A DNA stretch of 64,000 nucleotides from Advenella sp. FME57 (lineage in GTDB: Bacteria; Pseudomonadota; Gammaproteobacteria; Burkholderiales; Burkholderiaceae_B). Below, one piece after another: positions 5,291 to 33,189 of this stretch; the stretch's first letter is position 1; every line of letters starts with the position of its first letter. The stretch lies in assembly GCF_014897675.1 (NCBI RefSeq), contig NZ_JABUXU010000002.1, positions 248,001 to 312,000 on the forward strand, given 5' to 3'. A program made the position numbers and the translations under genes. The notes beneath the pieces are model-generated. The model saw only the letters and a list, made by a program, of their open reading frames with translations. It ran no database searches and was not told the DNA's origin.

Positions 5291-5330
5291 TCTGACTGCA
5301 GTCCACAATAGTGTTTTGAAGTTCAGAAGA

Positions 5331-5357
5331 CCCGGCAGGCGATTGCCGGGTTTTTTT
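5331..5357 (+). terminator. Intrinsic terminator after bamC
   Basis: Perfect 7-bp GC-rich stem CCCGGCA/TGCCGGG with a 6-base loop and seven T directly after it. It closes the dapA-bamC unit 40 bases after the bamC stop and sits between the convergent bamC and roxA genes. Confidence 0.9.
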
Positions 5358-5365
5358 CTGTCCGG

Positions 5366-9183: not shown

Positions 9184-9315
9184 GAGTGATAGGTTGTCTA
9201 AAGTATTCTGGCGTTCAATCGGCTATTTTACGATTATCCTGGACCTGGTTGGGCGGCGAATCATTTACCAGCGGCAAATCAGCTGATAGTGCAGATGCTG
9301 CCCTGCGAGCAATAG

Positions 9316-9501
9316 CGGGCGGAAGCACATAACGGCGCCAATGCGACTGTGGTGAAGACTGCATTGCAACTTTTGGGCCAACATTGTGGTGCGACCCGAC
9401 CACCCTCTGCATGGCCGACGAATCCACAGGCGCTTGACACGCTCAGGCAATTGTTGAAAACCTGGCAGCAGGCTGCAGCAATCGGTAGGGTCAAGGACTG
9501 A
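9316..9501 (+). pseudogene. C-terminal remnant of a dihydrodipicolinate synthase/N-acetylneuraminate lyase family gene
   Basis: Directly after an in-frame TAG (9313-9315), 61 codons read through to a TGA. They encode ATVVKTALQLLG, then CGATRPPSAWP, then ALDTLRQLLKTW. This is the usual ending of DapA-like aldolases: the Val-Lys-x-Ala-Leu-x-x-x-Gly helix, an Arg-Pro-Pro turn and a final amphipathic helix. No start codon, ribosome site or catalytic core is left, and upstream bases break into other frames. I read it as the tail of a decayed paralogue, not a working gene. The match is from memory of the family, not from a search. Confidence 0.55.
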
Positions 9502-10000
9502 CCGAGGCTGGTGTCCCTGTTTTTATTGCATGACACGACCCGGTTCGGCATAAACTTCTCCTGTCGTGACAGCAGGGGCCGCAAGTGTGGCGCCTTTGGC
9601 GCATCTATGGGGGCTACGCCAGCATCACGCCTATCGCCAACATTACCAACATCACGGCCATTGCATATGAAATATTTATGGCTGACTAGTGCTTCCAGCA
9701 GAAAAATTGATGGCGCGCCGGGATATAGCGTTTCAATTTATTAGACGTCATTGCGTCGCTCTGTGCATCGCATGGGTGTAACTTTTTGTATGAATAAATT
9801 TCCAATTTGTGTCACATGAGAAAATTTCAATTGACCCAGATTACCCCATGATTGGATGGATTCGGATTAGGATAAAACACTTATCGAATGATTAGTGAAT
9901 GGTCGAAATAACCCGTACAGGCTGGTGTCTGATTGACAAGAATAACCTGTTTTTATGACGATTATAAAATTGCATGACAATGGGGTTTTCATTTAGAAAA

Positions 10001-10020
10001 TTTATTTCAGTTGAAATAAA
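10001..10020. promoter_or_regulatory. Perfect 9-bp inverted repeat (TTTATTTCA-GT-TGAAATAAA)
   Basis: Two perfect 9-base arms flank a 2-base centre, about 280 bases before the ehuB start. The size and symmetry suit a dimeric repressor or activator site. The TTTCA/TGAAA core recurs in the second palindrome at 10216-10233. No regulator gene is adjacent, so the protein that would bind is unknown. Confidence 0.4.
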
Positions 10021-10215
10021 CCTAGGGTTTTCCATGCATATATTTCATCTAAATGACGCATTTTCGAATGTAACGAATATATCGAAATTAATGTATTGCG
10101 GTTGTGCAGTACCGTTTATCTATGTTACTTCTATAGATGAAGCGATAACCGCTAGCGCAGAAAACACACTCTTTATGCGATGAATTTTATGCATGAAAAT
10201 GTGCTGTATGCTGCG

Positions 10216-10233
10216 TTTGAAAGTTATTTCAAA
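10216..10233. promoter_or_regulatory. Perfect 7-bp inverted repeat (TTTGAAA-GTTA-TTTCAAA) before ehuB
   Basis: Two perfect 7-base arms with a 4-base centre lie 70 bases upstream of the ehuB ATG, where an operator or leader hairpin would be expected. It shares TTTCA/TGAAA half-sites with the palindrome at 10001-10020. Function is inferred from symmetry and position only. Confidence 0.4.
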
Positions 10234-10302
10234 TGCAATTTTTATCAGGACTATTTCCAGATAAAAACTTCAGGATAAATCAACTTCAAGGGGAGTAGAA
10301 CG

Positions 10303-11166
10303 ATGAATAGAGTGCTCAAAACTCGAACCCTGCTGGCTCTCGCTGTAGCAACCGCTGCGGCTTTTAGTACAGTTGCGTCAGCTGCCACGTTGCAGGAAAT
10401 TAAAGACAAAGGCGTGGTACGGATTGCAGTTGCCAACGAAATACCCTACGGCTTTGTCGATCCCACAGGCGAGGCCAAAGGCGCCGGACCGGAAGTGGCC
10501 AAGCACATTATGGAGCAGCTTGGCGTAAAGGAAATCAAATGGGTCACCACTGGTTTCAGTTCACTTATTCCGGGCTTGAAAGCCGATCAGTTCGACATGG
10601 TGGCAGCAGAGATGGCTATCCTGCCCCAGCGTTGTCAGCAGGTGGCTTTCTCTGAACCTAACAGCTCATATGGCGAGGGCCTGCTGGTTGCCGAAGGCAA
10701 CCCGGACAATCTGCATAAATATGAAGACTTTAGCAAGTCAGACAAGAAAATCGCCATCATGGCGGGTGCCGACCAGCTCGAAATGCTGCAAAAGCTTGGT
10801 GTTGACGACAGCCGTATGGTGACTATCTCCAATAATGCAGATGCGATTTCGACAGTGTCTACCGGTCGTGCCGCAGCCTATGCAGCAACCAGTCTGACGG
10901 TCAGTGAACTGGCCAACAAGAGTGACAAAGTCGAGCCAGCAGAAAAATTTGAAGACCCGGTGATCGATGGAAAACCTGCACGCAGCTGGGGTGGTTTCAC
11001 CTTTGATCAGGGCTCGGATGATCTGCGTAAAGCAGTTAACGAAGAGCTGACCAAGTTCAAGAAAACACCCGAGTGGAAAAAGATTCTGACTACTTATGGC
11101 TTTTCCGAACATGATTTGGAAGAGTCTACCAAGCAAACGACAGAACAACTTTGCGCAGCAAAGTAA
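10303..11166 (+). CDS. ehuB: Ectoine/hydroxyectoine ABC transporter substrate-binding protein EhuB
   Basis: A 287-residue periplasmic binding protein of the amino-acid (type 2, SBP family 3) class. A Sec signal peptide ends near SAA at residues 26-28. Mature features typical of EhuB include VANEIPYGFVDPTGEAKGAGPEV near residues 45-65 (read as two adjoining motifs) and AEMAILPQRCQQVAFSEP near residues 105-120. EhuB captures the compatible solutes ectoine and hydroxyectoine. A strong ribosome site (AAGGGGAG) precedes the ATG. It is the first gene of ehuBCDA; a perfect hairpin follows it, probably keeping its mRNA segment more abundant than the permease part. The specificity call is by family resemblance and gene order. 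Confidence 0.87.
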   Translation: MNRVLKTRTLLALAVATAAAFSTVASAATLQEIKDKGVVRIAVANEIPYGFVDPTGEAKGAGPEVAKHIMEQLGVKEIKWVTTGFSSLIPGLKADQFDMVAAEMAILPQRCQQVAFSEPNSSYGEGLLVAEGNPDNLHKYEDFSKSDKKIAIMAGADQLEMLQKLGVDDSRMVTISNNADAISTVSTGRAAAYAATSLTVSELANKSDKVEPAEKFEDPVIDGKPARSWGGFTFDQGSDDLRKAVNEELTKFKKTPEWKKILTTYGFSEHDLEESTKQTTEQLCAAK

Positions 11167-11217
11167 TCAGGTTGTAGCTCTTTTGAGGGTTATGCGCAAG
11201 CCGTATGGCGTGCGCAC

Positions 11218-11246
11218 ATGGGTCTGCAAGGCAATTGCAGACCCAT
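11218..11246 (+). repeat. Perfect 12-bp hairpin between ehuB and ehuC
   Basis: ATGGGTCTGCAA and TTGCAGACCCAT pair perfectly around a 5-base loop. No T run follows, so it is not a standard intrinsic terminator. Such stem-loops after a binding-protein gene commonly protect the upstream mRNA from 3' exonucleases, giving more receptor than permease; that role is inferred here. Confidence 0.7.
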
Positions 11247-11343
11247 CCTTGGTTTGGCGACATCAGCCAGGCTCAAACTCACCGGCTCGTGCAGGCTGCC
11301 GCTTGCATCCTTCATTTCATTTCCAAAAAATATAAGGTGACCG

Positions 11344-12015
11344 ATGGATTGGAATATATATCTGACGCCCCTGTTGCAGGGTGCGTGGGTGACCGTTCAA
11401 CTGACAGTCTATTCGACCATACTGGGTGCGATCACCGCTTTTGTATTCGGTGTCGGCAAGCTTTCAAGCAACTGGTTTTATCGCGGATTCTCGATCTGCT
11501 TTGTCGAGATTTTTCGTGGAACGTCCCTGCTGGTGCAGCTGTTTTGGCTGTTCTTTGCGCTGCCGCTATTGGGCCAGGCCCTGGGCCTGGACTTTCGCAT
11601 GGCGCCGCTGGTCGCCGGGACGCTGGCCCTGGGTTTTAATATCGGTGCCTATGGTGCCGAGGTCGTGCGCGGCGCCCTCCAGGCAGTACCTCGCTCGCAA
11701 TTTGAGGCGGCCAAGGCGCTGGACTTTACACCCCGCCAGACATTACGGTTTATTTGCCTGCCACAGGCCATCCCGGAAATGATGCCCAGCTTTGGTAACC
11801 TGGCGGTGCAAAATCTTAAAGATACTGCATTGGTATCGTTGATCAGCCTGGGCGATATGGCGTTTCGTGCCGAACAGATCCGCAATTACACACAGGACAG
11901 CACGACGGTATACACCATTTTGCTATTCATGTATTTTGGCATGGCACTGATTCTGACCGGAATCATGAAGCTGCTGGAGCGATCTGTCGGGCGCTGGCGC
12001 GCGGGGAGGGCCTGA
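11344..12015 (+). CDS. ehuC: Ectoine/hydroxyectoine ABC transporter permease EhuC
   Basis: This 223-residue permease of the HisM/GlnP class has about five membrane segments. The cytoplasmic ATPase-contact loop is seen as EVVRGALQAVPRSQFEAAKALDF around residues 105-127 (two adjoining motifs) and is followed by LPQAIPEMMPSFGN. FRGTSLLVQLFWLFFALP lies near residue 60. It forms the membrane channel with EhuD, whose gene starts 2 bases after this stop. Assignment to ehu rather than another polar amino-acid system depends on EhuB upstream. Confidence 0.85.
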   Translation: MDWNIYLTPLLQGAWVTVQLTVYSTILGAITAFVFGVGKLSSNWFYRGFSICFVEIFRGTSLLVQLFWLFFALPLLGQALGLDFRMAPLVAGTLALGFNIGAYGAEVVRGALQAVPRSQFEAAKALDFTPRQTLRFICLPQAIPEMMPSFGNLAVQNLKDTALVSLISLGDMAFRAEQIRNYTQDSTTVYTILLFMYFGMALILTGIMKLLERSVGRWRAGRA

Positions 12016-12017
12016 TC

Positions 12018-12706
12018 ATGTTTTTTGGTATTGAATGGGATACCAGCAGCAATTGGGCTTTTGCTGTTTCGATTTTTCCGATACTGCTCAAAGGCCTGGT
12101 GGTTACGCTGCAAGCGACCGTGCTGGGCTTTCTCGTAGCCATGGTGCTGGGCCTGATTCTGGCCGGACTTAAAAGTGCCCGGCTGGCCATCATCTCGTGG
12201 CCTGCAAAATTCATCACTGAATTTATCCGCGATACGCCGTTACTGGTCCAGCTTTTCTTTCTTTATTATGTGTTGCCCGAGCACGGCATTGTTTTGCCTG
12301 CTTTTATGACCGGGGCACTGGCATTGGGGGTGCAGTACAGCGCCTACCTGTCCGAGGTCTACCGGGCTGGCATCGAGTCCATCCCGCGCGGACAGACCGA
12401 GGCGTCGCGGGCATTGGACTTGGCGCCTGTGCGCACGTTCGGCTTCATCATTCTGCCGCAGGCGATCCCGCGCATTATTCCCGCAATGGGGAACTATCTG
12501 GTCTCCATCATGAAGGATGTGCCGGTGCTGTCGGTCGTTACCGTGCTGGAAATGCTCAATGTTGCAAAAATCATAGGTGATCGTACCTTCAATTATCTGA
12601 TACCGCTATCCATGGTGGGGATCATTTACCTGATCCTGACGATCGTCGCGTCCTATGGGGTGCGATATCTGGACACCCACCTGCCAAAACGAGGAATACC
12701 TTTACG

Positions 12707-12710
<4 letters not shown>
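12018..12710 (+). CDS. ehuD: Ectoine/hydroxyectoine ABC transporter permease EhuD
   Basis: The 230-residue partner permease has the same architecture as EhuC: FIRDTPLLVQLFFLYYVLP near residues 70-88, the ATPase-coupling loop EVYRAGIESIPRGQTEASRAL near residues 114-134 (split motif), and LPQAIPRIIPAMGNYL. The start sits only 2 bases after the ehuC stop, and its last codons overlap the ehuA start by four bases (ATGA). Translation of ehuCDA is therefore tightly coupled. Confidence 0.86.
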
Positions 12711-13582
<872 letters not shown>

Positions 13583-22024: not shown

Positions 22025-22891
22025 TTACTGCGTGCCGCGCAGGGCGGCATAGCCGTTACTGAGCACAACAACGTTGCGTTCCTGGACGCTGACCTGAAAG
22101 TGAATCTGATCCGCGCCTTCGCGCCAGATGTCGCAAAGCAGTGTTTCACCCGGATACACCGGCGCCGAAAAACGGGCATCGAAACGGTATAGCACGGCAG
22201 GGTCGTTGTCGCAGCAGTCCTGTACAACCGCTCTTGCGGCGTGCCCGTAGGTGCACAGTCCGTGCAAAATCGGCCGTTCGAACCCGGCCGCGGCAGCTGT
22301 CTGCGGGTCAATATGCAGCGGATTCGGATCTGCATTCAGTCGGTAGAGAATAGCGGCATTGGGCGCCACCGGAATCCTGCGCCGATAATCAGGTGCACGT
22401 TCAGGCACCCTTGGCAGGGCAGCCACGGGGGCATTTCCTTGGCCGAACCCGCCGTCAGCACGGCAAAATGTGGTCTGCTGGATTGTGGCCACAAGCGTAT
22501 TGTTTACATCGTACATATTGCGTTCGGCAATGACCAGTGCGCCCTTGTCGGCGCCCTTGTCGATTACATGCGAAATATGTGTCTTGCCGGTCAGTACGCC
22601 TTCGGCGGCCAGTGGTCTGTGCCAGATGCTGCGTTGCTCACCATGCACCAGTTTGACCCAGTTGATCCCGGTTGCCGGGTCTTGCATCCAGAAGCCTGGA
22701 TAGCACAGAATGCTGCTCATCGTAGGAAACGCCTGCAGCTGTTTTTCATATACAAATTGCAGTTGTGATGGATCCAGCGGGTCCGAGCCCAGGCCGATAC
22801 CCAGCGCGTACAGTATGCTGTCGCGCTGCGTATAGCTGTGGCGGGTATCGGCAAAACGCCAGTTCTTGATCCGTTCGTAATCCAGTGGCAT
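22025..22891 (-). CDS. MaoC-family (R)-specific enoyl-CoA hydratase, double hot-dog type
   Basis: A 288-residue protein with an N-terminal half related to MaoC-like domains and a C-terminal hydratase-2 domain. The hydratase-2 motif is YRLNADPNPLHIDP, giving the catalytic pair Asp188 and His193. It is followed by GFERPILHGLCTYG. Proteins of this layout hydrate 2-enoyl-CoA to (R)-3-hydroxyacyl-CoA, like the hydratase part of the eukaryotic multifunctional enzyme 2. It lies 17 bases after the SDR gene, which resembles the dehydrogenase part of the same enzyme, so the pair likely performs two successive beta-oxidation steps. Chain type unknown. Confidence 0.92.
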   Translation of the reverse strand: MPLDYERIKNWRFADTRHSYTQRDSILYALGIGLGSDPLDPSQLQFVYEKQLQAFPTMSSILCYPGFWMQDPATGINWVKLVHGEQRSIWHRPLAAEGVLTGKTHISHVIDKGADKGALVIAERNMYDVNNTLVATIQQTTFCRADGGFGQGNAPVAALPRVPERAPDYRRRIPVAPNAAILYRLNADPNPLHIDPQTAAAAGFERPILHGLCTYGHAARAVVQDCCDNDPAVLYRFDARFSAPVYPGETLLCDIWREGADQIHFQVSVQERNVVVLSNGYAALRGTQ

Positions 22892-22908
22892 GCGGCTGCT
22901 CCTTGTAA

Positions 22909-23823
22909 TCAGATGGGATCCCAGTTGATCACGTCGGGAGAGCGCTCCAGTTTATGGAACTGGCCCTGCATGGCCGGGATGGCGATCTGAGCGATCAACT
23001 CGGGCGTCCAGCCATCGGACATGTGCACGGAGCGTACCGGACGAGGCTGGCTAAAGAGGAGAATTTCATTGGCCCGTACCCCGAAAATCTGACCGGTTAC
23101 GTCTGCGCCGGCATCGCTGCCCAGATAGACAGCCATCGGCGCGACTTTATGCGTTTCCATTTTCTGCAGTTTCTGCACCCGCGCTTTTTCTTCAGGCGTT
23201 TCGGCGGGAATCGAACTGGTCATGCGGCTCCAGGCAAACGGCGCAATGCAATTGGATCTGACGTTATACCGGGCCATGTCAAGTGCAATCGACTTGGATA
23301 AGGCGGCGATACCCAGCTTGGCTGCGGAGTAGTTGGACTGGCCGAAATTGCCGATGAGCCCCGATGTTGACGTCATGTGTACATAAGCGCCCGACTCTTG
23401 TTCTCGAAAATAGGGAGCAGCAGCGCGACTGACAAAAAATGTTCCATGCAGGTGCACGTCAATGACCTGGCGCCATTCTTCTTCGTTCATTTTATGAAAC
23501 AGGCGGTCGCGCAGATTGCCGGCATTGTTGACGACGATATCAATACGACCGAAATGGTCCATGGCCGTCTGCACAATCTGGCTGGCCGACTCATAGCCGG
23601 CGACACTGTCGGTATTGGCGACTGCGGTGCCGCCAGCTGCGGTGATTTCGTCGACCACAGCGTGCGCGGGGCCATCAGTTCCCCCCTGACCGCTCAAAGA
23701 CACCCCGATATCGTTCACAACCACTTTTGCGCCGGCCTTGGCATAGGCGATTGCAATGTCCCGGCCGATACCACCTCCGGCCCCGGTAACAATCACTACT
23801 TTTCCTTCTGCAATTGAGCCCAT
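22909..23823 (-). CDS. SDR-family 3-hydroxyacyl-CoA dehydrogenase (MFE-2-like)
   Basis: A 304-residue short-chain dehydrogenase. The cofactor loop TGAGGGIGR is at residues 13-21, NNAG at 99-102, and the catalytic Ser154, Tyr165 and Lys169 lie in YSAAK. The insertion VNDIGVSLSGQGG after the second strand and the long C-terminal tail are typical of the (R)-3-hydroxyacyl-CoA dehydrogenase domain of peroxisomal MFE-2 and its bacterial homologues. It is the first gene of a two-gene unit with the MaoC hydratase and divergent from a LysR regulator that probably controls it. Confidence 0.9.
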   Translation of the reverse strand: MGSIAEGKVVIVTGAGGGIGRDIAIAYAKAGAKVVVNDIGVSLSGQGGTDGPAHAVVDEITAAGGTAVANTDSVAGYESASQIVQTAMDHFGRIDIVVNNAGNLRDRLFHKMNEEEWRQVIDVHLHGTFFVSRAAAPYFREQESGAYVHMTSTSGLIGNFGQSNYSAAKLGIAALSKSIALDMARYNVRSNCIAPFAWSRMTSSIPAETPEEKARVQKLQKMETHKVAPMAVYLGSDAGADVTGQIFGVRANEILLFSQPRPVRSVHMSDGWTPELIAQIAIPAMQGQFHKLERSPDVINWDPI

Positions 23824-23977
23824 CGGCTTCTCCTGTAAATTTCATTCATCCGCTCGCCAGCATGGCCGGTCGATCCAGTTAGGGATTACTATCTATTGTT
23901 GTTCGATTTCATGATAGGCCATAATGGCGGACGGCATTGTTCGTATTTCTCAACCCCCCCCTTCGTGTAAGCTTAAG

Positions 23978-24886
23978 ATGCGTTATGACCTGACAGACCT
24001 CAAACTGTTCATCAATATTGGTGAAGTCTCAAACCTGACCAAGGCTGCAGAAAAAACCTTTCTGTCGCTGCCGGCTGCCAGCGCCCGTATCAAGAATCTG
24101 GAAGACTCCCTCAAGGTGCGGCTGCTGATCCGCCAGGTTACCGGCGTGAGCGTCACCCCCGCCGGAGAAGTATTTCTGAAGTATGCCAAGGGGGTGTTCC
24201 AGCAACTGGAATGCATGCATGCCGAGCTTCAGCCGTTTTCCACCGGCATCAAGGGCAAGCTGCGGATCATGGCCAACACCGCTGCCACCCACTCCTTCAT
24301 GTCCGAAGCGTTGTCGACGTTTCTGGCCGAAAATCCCGATATTGATATTGAACTGGAAGAGAAACTATCCAAGGAAATTGTCTCTGCCATCCGTGGTGGG
24401 TCAGTAGACATTGGCATTGTCTCCAGCAATGTCAACCTGGATGGCCTGGATGTGGTGCCGCTGTTTCGGGACGAGCTGGTGGCCGTTACCCATTTGGCGC
24501 ACCCGTTGAAAGATCAGAAAGAAATTTCATTTGAAACCCTGATCGACCAGTACCAGTTTATCGGTATTAACCCCGAAAGTGCGATCCAGACGTTTCTGGA
24601 TGACAAAGCCTACAAACTGGGCAAGCGCTTGCATCAGCGCGTGCATGTTGGCAGTTTCGAAGCGGTCTGCCGCATGGTTGACGCCGGCATTGGGCTGGCT
24701 ATCGTACCGGTCGAATGCGCCCGCGCCTACAGCAGGGCTCCGCGCTTGCATATACTCAAACTCACAGATGAATGGGCCGATCGCGAACGCAATGTCTGTC
24801 GTCTGGCTGGGCGGGACCTGCCCGCGTATGCAGAAAAATTCATCGGCCATCTGCTTGATGTATCGCATCGGATGCATGATCGCTAG
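23978..24886 (+). CDS. LysR-family transcriptional regulator
   Basis: A 302-residue regulator: winged helix-turn-helix at about residues 4-62 (DLTDLKLFINIGEVSNLTKAAE split; LSLPAASARIKNLED as recognition part) and an effector domain from about residue 90 with the periplasmic-binding fold. The ligand is unknown. I start at ATG 23978, just before the conserved DLTDL; an ATG at 23924 would add 18 unlikely residues. It is divergent from the SDR-MaoC genes. In the shared gap, CTATC (23889) and GATAG (23913) form a spaced inverted repeat that may be its operator. Confidence 0.88.
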   Translation: MRYDLTDLKLFINIGEVSNLTKAAEKTFLSLPAASARIKNLEDSLKVRLLIRQVTGVSVTPAGEVFLKYAKGVFQQLECMHAELQPFSTGIKGKLRIMANTAATHSFMSEALSTFLAENPDIDIELEEKLSKEIVSAIRGGSVDIGIVSSNVNLDGLDVVPLFRDELVAVTHLAHPLKDQKEISFETLIDQYQFIGINPESAIQTFLDDKAYKLGKRLHQRVHVGSFEAVCRMVDAGIGLAIVPVECARAYSRAPRLHILKLTDEWADRERNVCRLAGRDLPAYAEKFIGHLLDVSHRMHDR

Positions 24887-25068
24887 TGGTGGGGGTCTTG
24901 AAATGGGCTGATTCGTTCAATGGAATCGCTAAGATCTTATCGGAGTAGGGTGAACGGGGATCCGGCAATTCGATAACTGAATGGATTGTCGGACTATATA
25001 CGTCTGATACATCAGGAAAATAAAAAATAATTGTGATGTGGCACGATTACTTGATTTGCCTCAATTCG

Positions 25069-25092
25069 TATAATTATAGGAGATTCTATAAT
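25069..25092 (+). promoter_or_regulatory. Likely promoter -10 box overlapped by a 7-bp palindrome
   Basis: A perfect TATAAT at 25069-25074 overlaps the left arm of ATTATAG-(6)-CTATAAT (25073-25092). The site lies about 90 bases before the small ribbon-helix-helix gene. A palindrome on the -10 box is the classical place for an autorepressor; no good -35 box at 17 bases is visible. Function is inferred. Confidence 0.45.
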
Positions 25093-25179
25093 AAACGCGA
25101 TGGACTGACACGCAGCCCATACGGACCTGGACGAGCCGGCGTTTATCGACATTGTCAATTTCAGGAAGGAGTGTTCCCT

Positions 25180-25401
25180 ATGGCAAACAGCAACACTGAA
25201 CACAGTCGCAGACTGAGAGCAAAAAACGCAACAGAGACGAACAAACGATTGGTTGCTGCTGGCTTGATTAAGCTGGTCACCTTTCGGCTTAAATCGGATC
25301 TGGCAAATGAGTTTGACGCCATTGCCCATGAGCGCGGCTTGAGCCGACCGGCCACTTTACAGATGCTTTGCGATATGTACCGGCAGCAAAACGCTAAATA
25401 G
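25180..25401 (+). CDS. Small ribbon-helix-helix-like DNA-binding protein
   Basis: A 73-residue basic protein. After an N-terminal tail rich in Arg, Asn and Thr, residues 31-40 (KLVTFRLKSD) look like the DNA-contacting beta strand of the MetJ/Arc/CopG fold. They are followed by a helix (LANEFDAIAHERG), a turn (LSRP) and a second helix (TLQMLCDMYRQ). The ribosome site AGGAAGGAG eight bases before ATG is among the best in the window, so it is surely translated. No toxin gene adjoins it, so it is not an obvious antitoxin. It may repress itself through the palindrome at 25073 and possibly the Bug gene downstream. Confidence 0.75.
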   Translation: MANSNTEHSRRLRAKNATETNKRLVAAGLIKLVTFRLKSDLANEFDAIAHERGLSRPATLQMLCDMYRQQNAK

Positions 25402-25606
25402 CTTGTCAAGTTGGCTTCTCGCATCTTGTGAATAGTACTCGGAGTCGCGAACACCCACATGAACTGTGGCAACCGGTCTTAGGCAGCGCTGAGGGGATCC
25501 TTCACGTATAAAAAACAGGAAATGGAAGGTTCTCGCGGCATAATTGGAGGGTGAAGAACCCACAAGAACGTCATGTCATTGCGAACATGACAATAAGGAG
25601 ACTGTT

Positions 25607-26605
25607 TTGAAAACCCTGATGATGCAACGCAGGCAACTGCTCAAATCCGCGCTTTATGGCGCTGCCGCCGTATACGGCCTGCGACCGGCCATGGCTTTTG
25701 CTGCGCAGTGGCCGGCAAAGGCGGTCAGTTTTATTGTTCCTTTTGCGCCGGGCGGGCCGGTAGACACGGTCGCGCGCATCGTGACTAACGGTCTGACGCA
25801 GCAATGGCAGCAGACGGCCATTATTGAAAATCGCGCGGGCGCCGGTGGAATTCTGGGGGCCAGGCTGTCGGCTCAGGCTAAATCAGACGGGTACAATTAT
25901 TTTTTTGCCGCCATTCATCACGCTATTTTACCCAGCCTGAATAAATCCCTGGATTACGACATTCAGAAGGATTTTGTACCGGTAGGCGCGGTTGCCCGGT
26001 TCCCGATCATACTGATTGCCCATCCGTCCCTGAAGGTCAAGTCTGTCAAGGAGCTGATCACGCTGGCAAAAGAACAGCCCGGTAAAATTGCCTATAGTTC
26101 CTCGGGAACGGGCGGCGGCACGCATTTGGCCGGCGCCTTGTTCGCCAGCATGGCCGGCATTGAGCTGCAACACGTGCCCTACAAGGGTAGTGCGCCGGCA
26201 GTTCAGGACCTGGTGGGCGGGCAGGTGCAGTTGATGTTTGCCGATGCTACGTCCGCCTTGCCTTTCATTAAATCAGGCAAGGTGATTCCGCTGGGTGTAG
26301 GCAATCCTCAGCGATCGGACCTGGCGCCGGATGTGCCCCCCATTGCCGATGAAGGCTTGCCAGGCTACGAAGCCTATTCCTGGAGTGGTCTGTTTGCGCC
26401 CGCGGGCACGCCGGCCGATATTGTGAAACAGTTCAATCAAAATCTCAACGCGCAGTTGAACGACAAGAGCGTCATTGCGAAAATGCAGGGCAGCGGATCG
26501 GAGGCGATGCCTATGACGCCGGAAGAGTTCGGCAAATTTCTGAGCGATGAAATTGCCAAGTGGCACAAGACCATTACCGATGCCAACATTACCATCCAGG
26601 GCTGA
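25607..26605 (+). CDS. Bug-family tripartite tricarboxylate transporter substrate-binding protein
   Basis: Bug (TctC) proteins are periplasmic receptors, mostly for carboxylates. This 332-residue one has the FIVPFAPGGPVDTVAR ligand loop near residue 45, the VIENRAGAGG-type segment (here IIENRAGAGGILGA) and the HVPYKGSAPA motif near residue 205. The signal peptide carries twin arginines (QRRQLLKSA), suggesting Tat export. The best start is TTG 25607, six bases after AAGGAG; ATG codons at 25619 and 25622 are too far from that site. It follows the ribbon-helix-helix gene by 205 bases. Ligand unknown. Confidence 0.9.
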   Translation: MKTLMMQRRQLLKSALYGAAAVYGLRPAMAFAAQWPAKAVSFIVPFAPGGPVDTVARIVTNGLTQQWQQTAIIENRAGAGGILGARLSAQAKSDGYNYFFAAIHHAILPSLNKSLDYDIQKDFVPVGAVARFPIILIAHPSLKVKSVKELITLAKEQPGKIAYSSSGTGGGTHLAGALFASMAGIELQHVPYKGSAPAVQDLVGGQVQLMFADATSALPFIKSGKVIPLGVGNPQRSDLAPDVPPIADEGLPGYEAYSWSGLFAPAGTPADIVKQFNQNLNAQLNDKSVIAKMQGSGSEAMPMTPEEFGKFLSDEIAKWHKTITDANITIQG

Positions 26606-26623
26606 CGTAGCACGCAACAAGGA

Positions 26624-26678
26624 CAATCAGGCCGTACGCGGCTCCCTCTACAGTGAGATAGCGCGTACTGCCTGATTG
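26624..26678. terminator. Long hairpin between two convergent Bug genes
   Basis: Seventeen-base arms (CAATCAGGCCGTACGCG and CGCGTACTGCCTGATTG) pair with a single mismatch around a 21-base loop. It begins 18 bases after one Bug stop and ends 31 bases before the other, so it probably ends both transcripts. No strong T run is present on either side. Confidence 0.6.
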
Positions 26679-26709
26679 CGTTAGCTGAAGCGTCGGGCGA
26701 TGGCCGGTT

Positions 26710-27684
26710 CTATTTGTCTGCCTGGATGCCGGCTTTTGCAGTGACCTCGCCCCACAACCGGTATTCGTTATCGATACGTGACTTCAGTTGCTTGCCACTG
26801 CGCAGCGAAATGGTGTAGCCCACTTTTTCCATCTGCTTGCGGTACTCGGGCAATTCAGAGACCGTCTTCAAGGCTTTTTCAATCTGCCCGGCGGTAGCGT
26901 CGTCCAGTTTTGCGGGACCGACAACACCGTACCAGCCGGTTACATCATAGTCGTCAATGCCCGCTTCGGACATAGATGGAACGTCGGGTAAAGCGCGATT
27001 ACGTTCTTTGGAGGTGACCGCCAGGGCCCGCACCTTGCCACTGTTGATGTAATTGATCGCCGTACCGGTGATGTCAAACATCATTGACGTCTTCCCGCCA
27101 ATCACATCGATCATGGCCGGCGCATTGCCGCGATAGGGAACGTGCAGCATTTCTGTGTCGGTTCGCTGCTTGAGCAGTTCGGCAGATAGTTGGTTGGATG
27201 ATCCTACCCCTGCCGAACCAAAGGATAAGGCGCCAGGATTGGCTTTGGCGTAGGCAACCAGTTCACTGATGTTTTTAACAGGCAGTTTGTTATTGACGAC
27301 CAGCACATTGGTATATTCGACCAGGTTGCCCAGGTAGCGGAAATCCCTATCCTTGTCGATCTGGATTCCTTTTTGAATATGCGGTGTGATGGTCAGCGTC
27401 GGGCTGGCCAGAAAATACAGCACGCTGCCGTCGGCCGGAGCCCGTGCTACATTTTCCGCAGCGATGATGCCACTGGCGCCGGTTTTGTTTTCGATAACGA
27501 CAGGCTGTCCGACCTGGTCGCCCAGAAATTTGGCAAATTGCCGGGCGGCCGTGTCTACCGGTCCGCCGGCTGCATAGCCGACCACCAGTTTGACGGGCTT
27601 GTCAGGCCAGTGATCGCTTGCCCAGACGAGGGCGGGGGACAGCAGCAACAGCAGGGGAGTGAAACGCAGGGAACGTTTTGACAT
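26710..27684 (-). CDS. Bug-family substrate-binding protein
   Basis: 324 residues with a Sec signal peptide (basic MSKRSLRF, a poly-Leu core, cleavage near VWA-SD). The ligand loop reads VVGYAAGGPVDTAAR instead of the more common Pro-rich form, and later segments are IENKTGASG and HVPYRGNAPA. ATG 27684 has GGAG five bases upstream; an upstream GTG/TTG extension is unlikely. It is the last gene of the minus-strand series that begins with the DUF35 gene, 79 bases after the next Bug gene. Two tandem, clearly different receptors suggest two ligands or ligand forms. Confidence 0.9.
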   Translation of the reverse strand: MSKRSLRFTPLLLLLSPALVWASDHWPDKPVKLVVGYAAGGPVDTAARQFAKFLGDQVGQPVVIENKTGASGIIAAENVARAPADGSVLYFLASPTLTITPHIQKGIQIDKDRDFRYLGNLVEYTNVLVVNNKLPVKNISELVAYAKANPGALSFGSAGVGSSNQLSAELLKQRTDTEMLHVPYRGNAPAMIDVIGGKTSMMFDITGTAINYINSGKVRALAVTSKERNRALPDVPSMSEAGIDDYDVTGWYGVVGPAKLDDATAGQIEKALKTVSELPEYRKQMEKVGYTISLRSGKQLKSRIDNEYRLWGEVTAKAGIQADK

Positions 27685-27763
27685 GATGTCTCCATTGGTC
27701 AGTTCGTGGTCGAAAGGCGCATAGGAAACGCGCCTTTCGCAATACACAGCTGCAGGCCCGGCG

Positions 27764-28747
27764 TTATTCGATGCGGGCGCCTGACTGGTCGACTGCGGTT
27801 TTCCATTTTTTTATTTCAGCTGTAATGAGATCGGCAAATTGCCCGGGTGTTGAACCCTCTATTTCGTAGCCGTATTGGGTCAGTTGCTGCCTGACTGCAG
27901 GCGTTTGGGCTGCATCATTGAATGCCTTGTTCAGTTGCATGAGTGCGTCCTCAGGGGTGCCCGCCGGCGCCAGGATACCGTACCAGCCATTGACCTCAAA
28001 GCCTGGCACACCGGATTCAGCCACAGTAGGAACATCGGGCAGGACAGCCGAACGCTTTGCTCCTGTAACGGCAAGGCCTTTGAGTTTGCCCGCCTTCACA
28101 TGGGGCAGGGAGGTGGAAATGCTGTCAAACATCAGCGAGACTTCGCCGGAGAGCATGGCCACCACGGCGGGTCCGCTACCTTTGTAGGGCACATGGATCA
28201 TTTTGGTGTCGGTGGCGCTTTTGAACAGTTCTGCCGCCAGATGACTGGTGTTGCCATTACCAGCAGAGGCAAACGTGAGCTTGTCCGGGTTGGCCTTGGC
28301 ATAGTCGATCAACTCCTGCGTCGTATTTGCCGGTGTCTGCTTGGCGGCGGTGACCAGCATGGGCAAGGTAGCCAGGACCGACACCGGCGCGAAATCCTTC
28401 TCGGTATCGTAGGGCAGCGATTTATACATGCTGGGGTTGATCGCGTGCGCAGCCAGCACCATTAGCACGGTATAGCCATCGGGTTTGGATCGTGCCAGTT
28501 GTGCCGTAGCGATGGTGCCACCGGCGCCGGGACGGTATTCAAGAACAACCGGTTGTTTGATTGTTTTCTGCATCTGCGCGGCAATCGGCCGGGCCAGCAT
28601 ATCGGCGCTGCCGCCCGGTGGATAAGGAATCAGCAGCGTAATGGGTTTGTCGGGAAAGGCCTGAGCGCCTGCGCTTAGCGCCAGCCCGAATGCCAGCACG
28701 CTTGCGTGCAGCATCAGATGCCGCAGTCTGTTGAATCTTGTCTTCAT
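27764..28747 (-). CDS. Bug-family substrate-binding protein
   Basis: 327 residues; signal peptide with core VLAFGLALSAGAQA, mature part starting near FPDKPITLL. Ligand loop LIPYPPGGSADMLAR, then VLEYRPGAGGTIA and HVPYKGSGPA. The chosen ATG at 28747 is preceded by GGAGACATC as in the neighbouring Bug gene, showing that the two leaders are related. A longer open frame upstream has no signal peptide and is rejected. It lies 223 bases after the CoA-transferase B gene on the same strand, which suggests, without proving, that its ligand is the acid activated by that enzyme. Confidence 0.9.
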   Translation of the reverse strand: MKTRFNRLRHLMLHASVLAFGLALSAGAQAFPDKPITLLIPYPPGGSADMLARPIAAQMQKTIKQPVVLEYRPGAGGTIATAQLARSKPDGYTVLMVLAAHAINPSMYKSLPYDTEKDFAPVSVLATLPMLVTAAKQTPANTTQELIDYAKANPDKLTFASAGNGNTSHLAAELFKSATDTKMIHVPYKGSGPAVVAMLSGEVSLMFDSISTSLPHVKAGKLKGLAVTGAKRSAVLPDVPTVAESGVPGFEVNGWYGILAPAGTPEDALMQLNKAFNDAAQTPAVRQQLTQYGYEIEGSTPGQFADLITAEIKKWKTAVDQSGARIE

Positions 28748-28970
28748 GATGTCTCCTTGGATTTTATATTGCTCTTGATGGCAGACAATAGATGCCTGCC
28801 AGTGGTGCTTTGTCGCCGTGTAATCAATCACACTTGTAATCGCCGGTTGCGGGCGTTTTTCAGGATAGGGCAAGGTAGCGCAACCTTTTTGATGCTCAAT
28901 GGTAGGGCATGTTTCGGGTTCCTCCTGGCACTTGCGCGCCACCCGCTACATTACACTGCCAATCTGCTGT

Positions 28971-29669
28971 TCAATCCAGATAGGGTAGTCCTGCACTGTC
29001 CACCCGGATTGTCTGGCATGGGCCATCCATGTGCAGCGTCGCCTCGCTCAGGTCCTGCAACTGTTGCTGTGTCAGTCCTTGCACCATGGCACGTATAATA
29101 AAGCGGCCCTCGCACACCTGGACGATGGCCAGATCGGTGTAAACATAATCGACCACGCCGGCGCCTGTCAGCGGGTAGGTGCAATGATGCAATAATTTGG
29201 CTGCACCGGTCTTGGTTGTATGTTCCATCATGACCAGCACCTGCTTTGCTCCTACGGCCAGGTCCATCGCGCCGCCAATCGCTGCAATCGCATTGGGCGC
29301 ATCGGTGATCCAGTTTGCCAGGTCCCCGTTTTCGGCAACCTGAAAGCCGCCCAGGATCGAGTAGTCCAGATGTCCGCCACGCATCATGGCAAATGAATTG
29401 GTGTGTTCGGTAATAGAGGCGCCCTGCAACAGGACAATGGGTTTACGGCTGGCGTTGATGATGTCGGTATCGATTTCGTCATTAATCGCGCTGCGTCCCA
29501 TGCCCAGAATGCCGTTCTCGCTGTGCAGGATAATTTCCCTGTCTGGCGGCAGGTAGTCTGCGACAGACGTAGGCATGCCGATACCAAGATTGACATAGGC
29601 GCCATCGGGCAGGCTGTTGGCTACCAGTCTGGCAATCTGTTCCCTGTCAAGACGGATGTAGTCAGTCAT
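28971..29669 (-). CDS. 3-oxoacid CoA-transferase-type enzyme, subunit B
   Basis: The 232-residue beta subunit of a family I CoA transferase. The catalytic glutamate that forms the glutamyl-CoA thioester is Glu51 in the signature SENGILGMG; GIGMPTSVADYL lies just before it and GGAMDLAVGAKQVLV later. The enzyme moves CoA from a donor such as succinyl-CoA to an acyl acceptor. Its ATG overlaps the end of subunit A by 8 bases, and AGGAG stands six bases upstream. Known members include acetoacetate, 3-oxoadipate and related transferases; the acceptor cannot be read from sequence. Confidence 0.93.
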   Translation of the reverse strand: MTDYIRLDREQIARLVANSLPDGAYVNLGIGMPTSVADYLPPDREIILHSENGILGMGRSAINDEIDTDIINASRKPIVLLQGASITEHTNSFAMMRGGHLDYSILGGFQVAENGDLANWITDAPNAIAAIGGAMDLAVGAKQVLVMMEHTTKTGAAKLLHHCTYPLTGAGVVDYVYTDLAIVQVCEGRFIIRAMVQGLTQQQLQDLSEATLHMDGPCQTIRVDSAGLPYLD

Positions 29670-30336
29670 GCTGCGCTCCTGCAAGTACGATATGTTTCAC
29701 AAAAATTCCCGGGGTCATGACCTGTTCGGGATGAATACTGCCCAGTTCGACCACTTTATCGACTTGCGCGATGGTGTGTTTGGCGGCAGTACACATGACG
29801 GGATTGAAGTTTCTGGCTGCCCAGCGATAGGTCAGATTGCCCCAACGATCTCCCAGATGGGCACGCACCAGCGCAAAATCGGCATGCAGGGGTTCTTCCA
29901 GCACATAGCCAACACCGTTGACGACGCGTTCTTCCTTGTTTTCCGATACGCGCGTGCCATAGCCGGTAGGCGTAAAAAACGGACCGAGTCCCGCGCCGGC
30001 TGCACGCATTCTTTCGGCCAGGGTGCCTTGTGGAGTGCATTCGAGCTCAATCGTGCCGGCACGAAACGCCTGCGCGAACACATCCGATTGCGGAGGGCGG
30101 GGATGAGAGCAGATGATTTTTCTGACCTGGCCATTTTTGATCAGACGGGCAATACCGACCTCGCGCGTGCCGGCGTTATTGCTGATGATCGTTAAATTGC
30201 GAGTCCCCATTTTTGCAAGACTGGCCAGCATTTCAAATGGAATGCCTGCGTCGCCAAAGCCGCCCACCATGATGGACGCCCCTTCGGGGATCTGGCTCAA
30301 TGCTGCTTCGTGTGTTTCTAGAATCTTGTTTATCAT
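29662..30336 (-). CDS. 3-oxoacid CoA-transferase-type enzyme, subunit A
   Basis: The 224-residue alpha subunit with the glycine-rich CoA-binding signature GASIMVGGFGDAGIP at residues 18-32 and later GTLAERMRAAGAG and TPTGYGT. It forms the heterotetrameric transferase with subunit B. The length and motifs match the Sco/Pca/Ato group. It begins 168 bases after the thiolase-like gene on the same strand; whether they share a transcript is open, as the gap has no clear terminator. Confidence 0.93.
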   Translation of the reverse strand: MINKILETHEAALSQIPEGASIMVGGFGDAGIPFEMLASLAKMGTRNLTIISNNAGTREVGIARLIKNGQVRKIICSHPRPPQSDVFAQAFRAGTIELECTPQGTLAERMRAAGAGLGPFFTPTGYGTRVSENKEERVVNGVGYVLEEPLHADFALVRAHLGDRWGNLTYRWAARNFNPVMCTAAKHTIAQVDKVVELGSIHPEQVMTPGIFVKHIVLAGAQHD

Positions 30337-30504
30337 CTCATTCCAATGTAGGGCAGCTTGCCCGGCTATTGTTGTGTATGCGCCTGCCTGGCGTCTTTAC
30401 GGCAGCCTGCCGGCAGATCTTCATCTACCGTCATTGCGCCAAGCCTGACGTTGTCCCTTGTCCAGGTCCGTATGATTTGTTCCCTGGGCGACAGTTAATG
30501 ATTC

Positions 30505-31677
30505 TCAAAGTGCCGCTTCGGTACCCAATATCGCAGTCGATTGGCTCGAGAGCGTGCCACCGTTGCCATGGACGACAGCAAGTTGGGCGTTGGCAACCTG
30601 GCGGGCATCGCATTGTCCTCTTAACTGCCTGACCGCTTCGATCAGAATAAAAATCCCGTACATGCCCGGATGCACGCAAGAGAGGCCTCCGCCGTTAGTG
30701 TTGACCGGCAAGTGTCCGCCGGGGGCGATGCCGCCTTTGCTTACAAAATCCCCGCCTTCGCCCTTGCGGCAAAAACCCAGGTCTTCCATGAACAGAATCG
30801 TATTGATGGTAAACGCGTCATATACCTCGGCGACGTCAATATCCGAGGGCTTGACGCCGGCCATTTCAAACGCAATTTTCCCGGACTGTTTGGCTGCGGT
30901 CACGGTCAGATCGCCCATGGAGGAAATCTGGCGATTCCACACGGCCGTGGAGTTACCCAGGACGTAAACGGGTTTCTGCTTGAGCGTTTTGGCCCGGTCG
31001 GCTCGCACCAGCACATAGGCGCCGGCGCCATCGCTCACCAGGCAACAATCGCGCACGGTCAGCGGATCAGACACCATGCGTGCCGAGAGCACCTGATCAA
31101 TCGTGAGCGGATCGCGCATGGAAGCCTCGGGATTGAGCTGGGCCCATTGTCGGGCGGCAACGGCTACCTCGGCCAGATGTTCGCGAGTCGTGCCGTATTG
31201 ATGCATGTGCCGGGCGGCAGCCAGTGCATAGGAGCTTAGCGGGCTCAAGGGTTGATAAGGGTTTTCGTAAGGCTGCGGGTCCATGACCTTGCGCATGTTG
31301 CCGATCGCGGCCCGATTCAGTGTGGAGCTGCGTTGCGTACTGCCGTAACAGACGAGCACGGCATTGCACTGGCCGGAGGCTAATGCCTGCATGGCCGGCA
31401 TCAGGTGCGCAACAAAACTGGAGCCGCCCACCATCGTGTTATCAATAAAGGTCGGTTTGATGCCCAGGTGCTCGATCACCGGCATCGCCCACATGGTCGA
31501 GGCGACGCTGGCCGTGGCAATGCCGTCGATATCCTGCATGGTCAGGCCGGCGTCGTGCACGGCACGCGTGGCGGCCTGAACCAGAATTTCCATTTCGGTA
31601 TAGCCCTCTGCCAGCCCCAGCCCTGCATGTCCGACACCGACAATTGCGGTTGCACCGCGCAGTTTCGCGTCTATCAT
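30505..31677 (-). CDS. Thiolase-like acyl-CoA protein of the SCP2-thiolase/Ltp group
   Basis: The 390-residue thiolase fold belongs to the branch that pairs with a DUF35 protein. Where classical thiolases have the nucleophilic cysteine, this protein has VGGSSFVAHL (residues 83-92) without Cys. The usual His-Asp-Cys-Phe motif is Tyr286-Asp-Ala-Phe, as in retro-aldol Ltp enzymes of steroid degradation. Cys334-Val-His336 and HGNGG (370-374) complete the site. It may therefore be a C-C lyase or an unusual thiolase rather than an ordinary acetyl-CoA acyltransferase. The start overlaps the DUF35 stop by four bases (ATGA), so the two are translated together. Confidence 0.88.
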   Translation of the reverse strand: MIDAKLRGATAIVGVGHAGLGLAEGYTEMEILVQAATRAVHDAGLTMQDIDGIATASVASTMWAMPVIEHLGIKPTFIDNTMVGGSSFVAHLMPAMQALASGQCNAVLVCYGSTQRSSTLNRAAIGNMRKVMDPQPYENPYQPLSPLSSYALAAARHMHQYGTTREHLAEVAVAARQWAQLNPEASMRDPLTIDQVLSARMVSDPLTVRDCCLVSDGAGAYVLVRADRAKTLKQKPVYVLGNSTAVWNRQISSMGDLTVTAAKQSGKIAFEMAGVKPSDIDVAEVYDAFTINTILFMEDLGFCRKGEGGDFVSKGGIAPGGHLPVNTNGGGLSCVHPGMYGIFILIEAVRQLRGQCDARQVANAQLAVVHGNGGTLSSQSTAILGTEAAL

Positions 31678-32072
31678 GCTTGATCTCCTGCTGGAACAAA
31701 GACCAGCAACGTGCTGTCGTCTGTCTGCTTGATGCGGGCGCTGACCGCCAGGCCGATTTTCACCTCGTCAGGCGTGATCTGTTCTACCCGGCTCATCATG
31801 CGGGGGCCTTCCTCCAGGTCGATCAGGGCTACATTATAGTCGCCGCCTTTTTCCGGTTTGTTGCGAACGACGGTGGTGGAATACACCGTGCCCTTGCCTG
31901 AGGGTTCGTACCATTGCAGGTCGTCGCTGCCGCAGTGGGGACAGATCATGCGCGGGTAGAAGATGCTGTTGTTACATTGGCCACAGCGCTGAATGGTAAA
32001 CACGCCGGCCTGTAGCTGGGTGTGGTAGTACTTGTCTGCGCCGGTGTCCAGCGCCTGGTTGCTCACGGTCAT
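31674..32072 (-). CDS. DUF35 OB-fold/zinc-ribbon acyl-CoA-binding partner protein
   Basis: A 132-residue protein with a rubredoxin-like zinc ribbon (Cys30, Cys33, Cys44, Cys47: CGQC and CPHC) and then an OB-fold strand pattern with GKGTVYSTTVVR and NVALIDLEEGPRMMSR. Such proteins bind thiolase-like partners and complete their active site; known pairs are BbsA-BbsB of anaerobic toluene degradation and the ChsH2-DUF35/Ltp2 complex. It is the promoter-proximal gene of the minus-strand series and is coupled to the thiolase-like gene. Confidence 0.92.
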   Translation of the reverse strand: MTVSNQALDTGADKYYHTQLQAGVFTIQRCGQCNNSIFYPRMICPHCGSDDLQWYEPSGKGTVYSTTVVRNKPEKGGDYNVALIDLEEGPRMMSRVEQITPDEVKIGLAVSARIKQTDDSTLLVFVPAGDQA

Positions 32073-32388
32073 GGGCTATTCCTGTATCTAAAATTGCATA
32101 TGTCGTACAGTATTGATTCGGGGTCCCCGATTGGCAATCTGTTTTTCCCGAAGGATAACTTCAGACACACTTAACTCACGTTTTCCCTCAAGCGATGCCA
32201 GGCTCAAAAACAGGCGAACGGGGGCTTCCGGAATACAGAATTGCGATCCCCGGAAATTTGTAGTGAGATAGGGTCTGTACCGATTGTTTGCCAATGACTT
32301 ATTGTCAGATTGGTTATGATGACGGGTTTATTGAAGCCGATAGCCATGCTTGCGTCGGTCAGTTTGGAATTTTCAGGGGAGTGCAGCT

Positions 32389-33189
32389 GTGGAAAAAAAA
32401 GACTATGAGACGATTTTGTTTGAGTATCGCGACAGCGTGGGATATATCACGCTCAACAGGCCGGACAAACTCAACAGCTTTACGGGGCAGATGCACAGCG
32501 AGTTGCGCGACGTCCTGGACTTTCTTGAGTCGCGGGCGGATTTACGCGGGGTCATTCTGACCGGGGCAGGGCGCGGGTTTTGTGCGGGTCAGGACCTGGG
32601 TGAGCGCCAGCCGCTGGAGCCGGGCCAGTTTCGTGACCTGGGCGAAGCGCTGGAGAAAAATTACAAACCACTGATTTTGCGGATGCGTGCCTTGCCGGCA
32701 CCGATTGTTTGTTTCGTCAATGGCGTGGCAGCCGGGGCAGGCATGAGCCTGGCGCTGGCCTGCGATCTGGTTTTTGCGGTCAAATCTGCCAAATTTATTC
32801 AGGCATTTGCCAAAATCAGTCTGGTGCCGGACGCCGGGTCCACTCATTTTCTGCCGCGTCTGATCGGCACCCAGCGCGCCATGGGCGCAGCCATGCTGGC
32901 AGAACCGATATCTGGCGAACAGGCCGAACAATGGGGCATGATCTGGAAGTGCATTGCCGATGATCAACTGCAATCGCAAATGCAAACCGTCCATACGCAA
33001 CTGACCACCGGCGCGACGCGCGCGCTGGCGGCAACCAAACACGCACTGTACGCGAGCGCCGATAACAGCCTGCCCGAACAACTCGAACTGGAAATTGAAC
33101 TGCAGCGCGAGATGGGAATGAGCGAGGATTATCGGGAGGGCAGCAAAGCGTTTCGGGAAAAGCGCAAGCCGCTATTTCAGGGCCGCTAG
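32389..33189 (+). CDS. Enoyl-CoA hydratase/isomerase family protein, PaaG-like
   Basis: A 266-residue crotonase-fold enzyme. The oxyanion-hole segments are GRGFCAGQDL (residues 61-70) and NGVAAGAGMSLALACDLVF (111-129), and the acidic active-site region is LVPDAGSTHFLPRL (145-158). This sequence and the following GEQAEQWGMIW closely recall PaaG, the 1,2-epoxyphenylacetyl-CoA isomerase, though no other paa gene is near. GTG 32389 is the best start: GGGGAG lies seven bases upstream and the length then fits PaaG (262). An ATG at 32350 lacks a ribosome site. It is divergent from the DUF35-thiolase genes. Confidence 0.85.
   Translation: MEKKDYETILFEYRDSVGYITLNRPDKLNSFTGQMHSELRDVLDFLESRADLRGVILTGAGRGFCAGQDLGERQPLEPGQFRDLGEALEKNYKPLILRMRALPAPIVCFVNGVAAGAGMSLALACDLVFAVKSAKFIQAFAKISLVPDAGSTHFLPRLIGTQRAMGAAMLAEPISGEQAEQWGMIWKCIADDQLQSQMQTVHTQLTTGATRALAATKHALYASADNSLPEQLELEIELQREMGMSEDYREGSKAFREKRKPLFQGR

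Follow-up and report, generated by a model that had tools for sequence, protein, structure and literature searches.

The gene block between uppP and lpxH

The window analysed here is a stretch of 64,000 nucleotides from the 4.74 Mb genome of Advenella sp. FME57 (positions 248001–312000 of contig C36), in which the gene calls place a block of putative catabolic genes between the housekeeping genes uppP and lpxH. The block is built around a thiolase-fold enzyme, here called THL, whose gene shares 4 bases with that of a DUF35 partner, and its other genes are listed in Table 1. The NCBI model that THL matches, NF004811, is named acetyl-CoA acetyltransferase. Judged by sequence, this label is very likely wrong; THL is probably not a thiolase and would work like the retro-aldolases of steroid and ibuprofen metabolism, outside the Ltp2 and Sal subfamilies. 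The block reads as one catabolic route, and our best explanation of the whole, held with moderate confidence, is the import, activation, dehydrogenation and hydration of an organic acid, followed by its retro-aldol cleavage by THL and DUF35. It is a conserved catabolic module that has apparently gone unstudied. The initial annotation of this interval had called the route uncharacterised, and in the full-text literature searched, which leaves most subscription journals outside it, none of the papers listed deals with the route or has the NF004811 cluster as the subject of its title or abstract start.

Table 1. Features of the block, with positions in the window and profile matches
Feature	Position	Strand	Profile match
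MaoC-type hydratase 2, double hot-dog as in MFE-2	22025..22891	-	PF22622 (MFE-2 hydratase-2 N) + PF01575
SDR, (3R)-hydroxyacyl-CoA dehydrogenase-like, PRK07791 type, MFE-2-like	22909..23823	-	NF005861, 286.9 bits, below cut-off 373
LysR-type regulator, divergent from SDR-MaoC	23924..24886	+	PF00126 + PF03466
73-codon open reading frame, proposed second regulator, unsupported	25180..25401	+	Pfam: nothing at E 0.01
Bug/TctC periplasmic receptor 1	25619..26605	+	PF03401
Bug/TctC periplasmic receptor 2	26710..27747	-	PF03401
Bug/TctC periplasmic receptor 3	27764..28942	-	PF03401
3-oxoacid-type CoA-transferase subunit B (CtB)	28971..29669	-	TIGR02428, 274.7 bits, cut-off 243.55
3-oxoacid-type CoA-transferase subunit A (CtA)	29662..30336	-	TIGR02429, 336 bits, cut-off 128.5
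THL, thiolase-fold enzyme without thiolase nucleophile, probable CoA-dependent retro-aldolase	30505..31677	-	NF004811/PRK06158, 676.7 bits, cut-off 421
DUF35 zinc-ribbon/OB-fold partner	31674..32072	-	PF12172 + PF01796
PaaG-like enoyl-CoA hydratase/isomerase (crotonase, ECH)	32389..33189	+	TIGR02280, 344.7 bits, barely below cut-off 345.15

The enzymes and receptors named in the initial annotation were all confirmed by profile matches, as was the likeness of the SDR and MaoC proteins to the two halves of MFE-2. Of the two regulators it proposed, the LysR gene, which is present in all eight congener stretches, is supported and the second is not. As also stated there, no acyl-CoA dehydrogenase occurs among the genes called in 22025–33189. 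Sequence motifs are well kept: D..NPLH and HGl of MaoC are conserved in an alignment of 48 homologues, STSG and NYxxAK of the SDR are retained in 25 orthologues, and the ENG motif of CtB is found without exception in 40 sequences. The CoA transferase belongs to the PcaIJ/Sco family (PF01144). The GC content of the block (0.556) is near that of the rest of the window (0.546), hence there is no sign of recent import.

Active site, structure and phylogeny of THL

Thiolases require a nucleophilic Cys. The THL of the window has no Cys in the nucleophile loop, whichever alignment column is chosen, and the loop is free of Cys in 118 of the 120 homologues with data. These homologues were collected as best matches and are not a random sample (30 loci of one search, 10 further matches and the best 80 of 578); together with the window they give 121 THL genes, and removal of 12 duplicate loci left 109 distinct loci. 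The thiolase Cys column corresponds to Gly85 in an alignment of 51 sequences and in the HMMER alignment to 6esq, and to Met82 in two other alignments. We favour Gly85 because it is aligned with Sal Gly89, the backbone amide of which touches the substrate hydroxyl according to the available text of PMC12329534.

The thiolase HDxF motif is replaced by YDAF in all 121 THL sequences, and Ala288 and His336 are equally invariant. The same available text gives the catalytic residues as Tyr302 and Cys304 in Sal, and as Tyr294 and Tyr344 in Ltp2 (PMC12329534). Tyr286 of THL aligns with Sal Tyr302 and Ltp2 Tyr294, Ala288 with Sal Cys304, and His336 with Sal Gln352 and, less surely owing to a nearby gap, with Ltp2 Tyr344. 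The alignment thus suggests that the base is retained and the acid differs relative to Ltp2 and Sal; because this second catalytic residue differs, we treat THL as a lineage apart from both.

Among solved chains, the top sequence matches of THL are 4u4e, then Sal (9myr) and Ltp2 (6ok1), and those of the DUF35 protein are ChsH2(DUF35) in 6ok1 and the Shy domain in 9myr. A structural model of THL reached a predicted local distance difference test (pLDDT) score of 93.5 and a predicted template modelling (pTM) score of 0.94 with an input of 34 more diverse sequences, 10 close sequences having given a pLDDT of 40. Ranked by E-value, Foldseek placed 4u4e, Sal and Ltp2 first (TM-scores 0.86, 0.90 and 0.88).

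In an IQ-TREE phylogeny of 51 proteins, the 44 rows without Cys in the column of the 51-sequence alignment, including Ltp2, Sal and IpfD of pIBU218, form one side of a branch with support of 100/99, and the seven thiolases, including BbsB, lie on the opposite side. IpfD was picked by its position beside ring-hydroxylating dioxygenase genes. YDxF is found in 43 of these 44 rows. THL falls outside the branch that unites Sal, Ltp2 and IpfD, whose support (91/85) is not one of the highest. The suggestion that Ltp/DUF35 enzymes are a parallel was the right one. Six of the 109 loci also encode, within 8 kb of THL, a thiolase of the SCP2 type that has Cys and HDCF, so thiolysis there does not depend on THL.

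Linkage, proposed route and substrate

The sub-blocks were initially taken to belong together, and comparison of gene order bears this out. Eight congener stretches (L031–L038) have an identical order of MaoC, SDR, LysR, three Bug genes, CtB, CtA, THL, DUF35, ECH and lpxH, with an additional Bug-like gene between CtA and THL in L036–L038. The uppP side is visible in four of the eight, the remaining stretches stopping short of uppP; L038 begins within the block and its MaoC was located by a separate MaoC search. The THLs of L035 and L038 are identical to records of Advenella kashmirensis W13003 and A. mandrilli, respectively. In a ninth congener (G004), MaoC and SDR lie at a contig edge without a close THL. 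The DUF35 frame of L031 (7562–7837) is broken and cysS also matches in pieces, possibly reflecting assembly errors and not decay.

Beyond the congeners, SDR, MaoC, DUF35 and THL are consecutive and co-directional in five further loci (L046, L054, L068, L069 and L102). Within 8 kb of THL, the 109 loci hold DUF35 (95), Bug receptors (91), SDR (67), MaoC (38), CtA (33), ECH (32), PimC (25) and PimD (24, in each case together with PimC); these counts are lower bounds, since the loci are best matches and only 78 extend a full 8 kb to either side of THL. Searching from MaoC, 32 of 53 homologue places have a THL homologue (at least 54% identity) no more than 15 kb away, rising to 22 of 28 at MaoC identities of at least 55%. 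Among 150 genomes, our own included, 37 have both MaoC and THL and 102 lack both; MaoC stands alone in 4 and THL in 7 (Fisher p about 1.6e-23, uncorrected for relatedness, hence overstating independence). Gene orders differ between loci, which argues that the linkage is under selection. It is very unlikely that three unrelated sub-blocks stand side by side by chance. CoA-transferase genes are near THL in just the 33 loci above and no operator common to three intergenic regions was evident in alignments judged by eye, both as expected of unrelated sub-blocks; MaoC and SDR, however, accompany THL–DUF35 across genera in altered orders.

The activating enzyme differs between loci, being CtAB, a class III transferase or an AMP-forming ligase, with an 'acetate--CoA ligase family' protein in this place on a Pseudomonas aeruginosa plasmid and on one Pseudosulfitobacter plasmid. 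The P. aeruginosa record brings together DUF35, an NF004811 member (694.2 bits), MaoC, a PimC/PimD-like pair, ECH and a PRK07791-like SDR. This segment (L158, plasmid p2014S05-249-1, 7628–21137), holding wapB and the whole THL module, resembles chromosomal DNA, and its final gene, cut by the end of the stretch, is annotated NADH:quinone reductase; we take it to be the PA1014–PA1024 region. On the Hydrogenophaga plasmid pBPS33-1 (L161, 6835–11176), two adjacent thiolase-like/DUF35 pairs, both without the thiolase Cys, lie near an IS1071 transposase gene.

The missing acyl-CoA dehydrogenase can be accounted for in part. L036–L038 have a PimC-/PimD-type acyl-CoA dehydrogenase gene pair between DUF35 and ECH (453.3 and 261.1 bits in L037, under the equivalog cut-offs), and similar genes lie elsewhere in the window's genome, in a pim-like locus at 211.9–220.5 kb of C36 (PimC 57%, PimD 34%, FadJ 51%, second CtA 66%). 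This locus (L191, C36:207000–226000, 4898–13471), about 57 kb from the block, also has an AMP ligase.

We infer the reaction, the order of steps and the acid residue as follows. An organic acid would be imported via the Bug receptors and turned into its CoA thioester, then dehydrogenated between C2 and C3 by a heteromeric PimC/PimD-like enzyme, encoded in the block in some congeners and possibly by the similar genes elsewhere in the window's genome. The MaoC enzyme would hydrate the enoyl product to a 3-hydroxyacyl-CoA, which THL and DUF35 would cleave to acetyl-CoA or propionyl-CoA and a ketone, 3-oxoacid or aldehyde. As the nucleophilic Cys is missing, no acyl-enzyme is expected. Tyr286 in the YDAF motif probably serves as the base, the role of its counterparts in Ltp2 and Sal, and His336 is the probable acid. 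Cleavage of this kind suits acids branched at the beta carbon because these cannot form a 3-ketoacyl-CoA. The CoA transferase may activate either the acid or a 3-oxoacid product, both fitting its family equally well, and the SDR and PaaG-like enzyme may act in another, conventional round of beta-oxidation or in moving a double bond.

A number of observations weigh against this route. THL lacks the residues that act as the acid in Ltp2 (Tyr344) and Sal (Cys304), and the choice of His336 is a guess. THLs of two loci (L063 and L110) have a Cys at position 82 (GTCVGGSS and GTCLGGSS), which is the thiolase Cys column in two alignments and not in the 51-sequence alignment. Four of the 44 tree rows (dL170, dL172, dL173 and dL176) have a Cys one place past the column, and dL177 has HDAF. 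Thiolases come close behind in the Foldseek ranking, the TM-score of 6esq (0.89) being about equal to those of Sal and Ltp2, and DUF35 partners serve true thiolases too. Finally, a FadJ-type enzyme stands in place of SDR and MaoC in 15 of the 109 loci (e.g. L057–L060 and L062–L066) and co-occurs in none with the SDR family or with this MaoC family. This replacement suggests that a 3-ketoacyl-CoA is made, for which a pure retro-aldol route has no need; the explanation would be an additional round of beta-oxidation in these loci or, contrary to the model, action of THL on the ketone.

The FadJ-type sequences retain the catalytic motifs of the dehydrogenase (18 of 18) and the hydratase (17 of 18). 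Three of the 15 FadJ loci have a different, short MaoC-domain gene, 12 have CtA and 11 a biotin carboxylase, the latter being found in 18 of the 109 loci and with CtA in 17 of those 18. An aldehyde-dehydrogenase gene (c44) in six of the 15 is in keeping with an aldehyde product, although it could be part of an adjacent operon. The window's genome itself has a second THL–DUF35 cluster of the FadJ kind (L060, C59:197000–216000, THL at 8364–9530), with genes for a CoA transferase, a FadJ-like enzyme and a biotin-dependent carboxylase (CT, BC and BCCP).

Two other reactions deserve weighing here. THL–DUF35 might be a true thiolase of the BbsAB kind, with the CoA transferase activating the acid, MaoC hydrating and the SDR oxidising to a 3-ketoacyl-CoA that then undergoes thiolysis. 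The enzyme functions would fit R-specific beta-oxidation (MFE-2 plus SCPx), the FadJ exchange without overlap agrees with it, and so do the retention of the GHP-type His as His336 and the Cys at position 82 in two of the 120 homologues. We nevertheless consider this unlikely, given the absence of the nucleophilic Cys from the window enzyme, the change of HDxF to YDAF and the separation from BbsB and the SCP2 thiolases in the tree. Alternatively, a Cys-less thiolase-fold enzyme could carry out another reaction on a 3-oxo- or 3-hydroxyacyl-CoA, for example hydrolytic retro-Claisen cleavage or decarboxylation. FadJ exclusivity and the linkage to dehydrogenases and, in the 18 loci, to biotin carboxylase are consistent with this, and TbSLP of the same superfamily is described in the available text as having weak malonyl-CoA decarboxylation (PMC12329534). 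The three characterised members included here in the clade (Ltp2, Sal and IpfD) are described as retro-aldolases, however, which makes such a reaction rather unlikely as well.

For the favoured retro-aldol route, the substrate is probably a non-steroid, branched acid, and there are weak indications from gene content that it is branched and possibly dicarboxylic. The PimC/PimD-like dehydrogenases point to dicarboxylic acids. On a Polaromonas plasmid THL is followed by a gene for a porin of the DcaP family, and L039 has, close to THL, a class III transferase similar to succinate-glutarate CoA-transferase (501.3 bits against a cut-off of 750). In 28 of the 109 loci, three or more of a set of five itaconate/methylsuccinate-type genes occur no further than 8 kb from THL; these loci come from Achromobacter (8), Limnohabitans (4), Bordetella, Castellaniella, Alcanivorax, Alloalcanivorax, a Rhodospirillum metagenome-assembled genome (MAG), other MAGs and further genomes. 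The gene names (Ich, Ict, Ccl, Mcd and Msi) were assigned by family and gene order and not by comparison with characterised genes, and since this cluster is common in Betaproteobacteria, its adjacency in related Achromobacter weighs little. Matches to all five are present in the window's genome at 37.4–44.5 kb of C59 (L190, 4388–11457 of C59:33000–52000). A beta-methyl diacid such as 3-methyladipate would be predicted to use all these genes.

Ordinary beta-oxidation is blocked at beta-methyl-branched acids. We offer, as a speculative proposal that is on the unlikely side in its full extent, that the NF004811 THL–DUF35 enzymes are a third CoA-dependent retro-aldolase lineage, with which many Proteobacteria would cut beta-methyl-branched, largely isoprenoid-derived acids and diacids to acetyl-CoA and a ketone or 3-oxoacid. 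Combined with a round of beta-oxidation, this route would release methylsuccinate, e.g. from 3-methyladipate, for the adjoining methylsuccinate/itaconate-type genes. A 2025 paper states that the source of methylsuccinate had until recently been unclear, and the link to these genes makes such an origin testable. The pristane proteome of Alcanivorax, in its available text, names FadAB, FadAB2 and one more ketoacyl-CoA thiolase (PMC6850023).

Replacement of HMG-CoA lyase in leucine breakdown was rejected, as five NF004283 matches above the cut-off in the genome leave no gap to fill. Sulfur acids are a speciality of Advenella. The words 'thiolase' and 'CoA-transferase' are both missing from the main text of an A. 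mimigardefordensis proteome study as far as it is available (PMC5373536), which is neutral on sulfur acids.

If the THLs are retro-aldolases, a common catabolic cluster has its key step mislabelled in many genomes. The retro-aldol bypass of branched carbons would then extend beyond steroid and ibuprofen metabolism, with a bearing on the mineralisation of isoprenoid and other branched acids, and the picture of branched-acid degradation may need partial revision. THL would also be a candidate aldol biocatalyst.

Comparison with known systems

The igr module comprises the ChsE1E2 dehydrogenase, the ChsH1H2(MaoC) hydratase and the Ltp2–DUF35 aldolase (PMC12502768, available text). Clusters of PimC/PimD, MaoC, DUF35 and THL hold the same three enzyme kinds, which is why we take dehydrogenation, hydration and retro-aldol cleavage as the core of the proposed route. 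The block shares with igr of Mycobacterium tuberculosis and ORF40–44 of Comamonas testosteroni a MaoC hydratase and a DUF35 protein with a Cys-less thiolase-fold aldolase bearing the YDxF Tyr and, in some congeners, a heteromeric acyl-CoA dehydrogenase, the pair missing from the window block. It differs in that MaoC and DUF35 are separate genes, an SDR, a crotonase and Bug receptors are added, and THL has His336 for the second Tyr of Ltp2 and YDAF for its YDHF. That the block is itself an Ltp2/igr operon proper, for the side chains of steroids or bile acids, is extremely unlikely: its gene kinds equal those of igr, but KshA_C (PF19298), the single steroid-ring marker searched, was not matched in the genome, the hydratase is unfused to DUF35, Bug receptors are present and THL lies outside the Ltp2/IpfD/Sal branch.

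The bbs operon, the other parallel drawn initially, is alike in having a thiolase fold with a DUF35-like subunit, an SDR, a hydratase and a CoA transferase, yet did not hold up. BbsB retains the thiolase Cys and HDAF and stands on the thiolase side of the tree, whereas THL has lost both this Cys and this His. The BbsEF CoA transferase is of the class III family, and that of the block is of another (PF01144). The itaconate/methylsuccinate cluster ich-mcd-mmgE-ict-ccl is a separate pathway outside the window block, genes of the same families adjoining THL in the 28 loci described above.

Closer likenesses are found among the Cys-less enzymes. The bile-acid aldolase Sal–Shy has a thiolase fold without the Cys nucleophile, a DUF35 partner and the YDxF Tyr base, and differs in having Cys304 of YDCY and Gln352 where THL has Ala288 and His336. 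The ibuprofen step of IpfD is described as retro-aldolase cleavage (PMC9195938, available text). IpfD–IpfE of pIBU218 resembles THL–DUF35 in its lack of Cys, its YDAF motif and its DUF35 partner, whereas IpfD is without the HPGMYG motif, falls on another tree branch and has as its substrate an aromatic diol-CoA formed by a dioxygenase, for which the block has no gene. On the same plasmid (L182, 5588–7152), a further enzyme, Ltp2-like and also paired with a DUF35 protein, adjoins a crotonase and a CoA-transferase gene. The closest solved structure is 4u4e, a putative thiolase of Sphaerobacter thermophilus, which likewise has no loop Cys and carries YDSF and HPGMYG.

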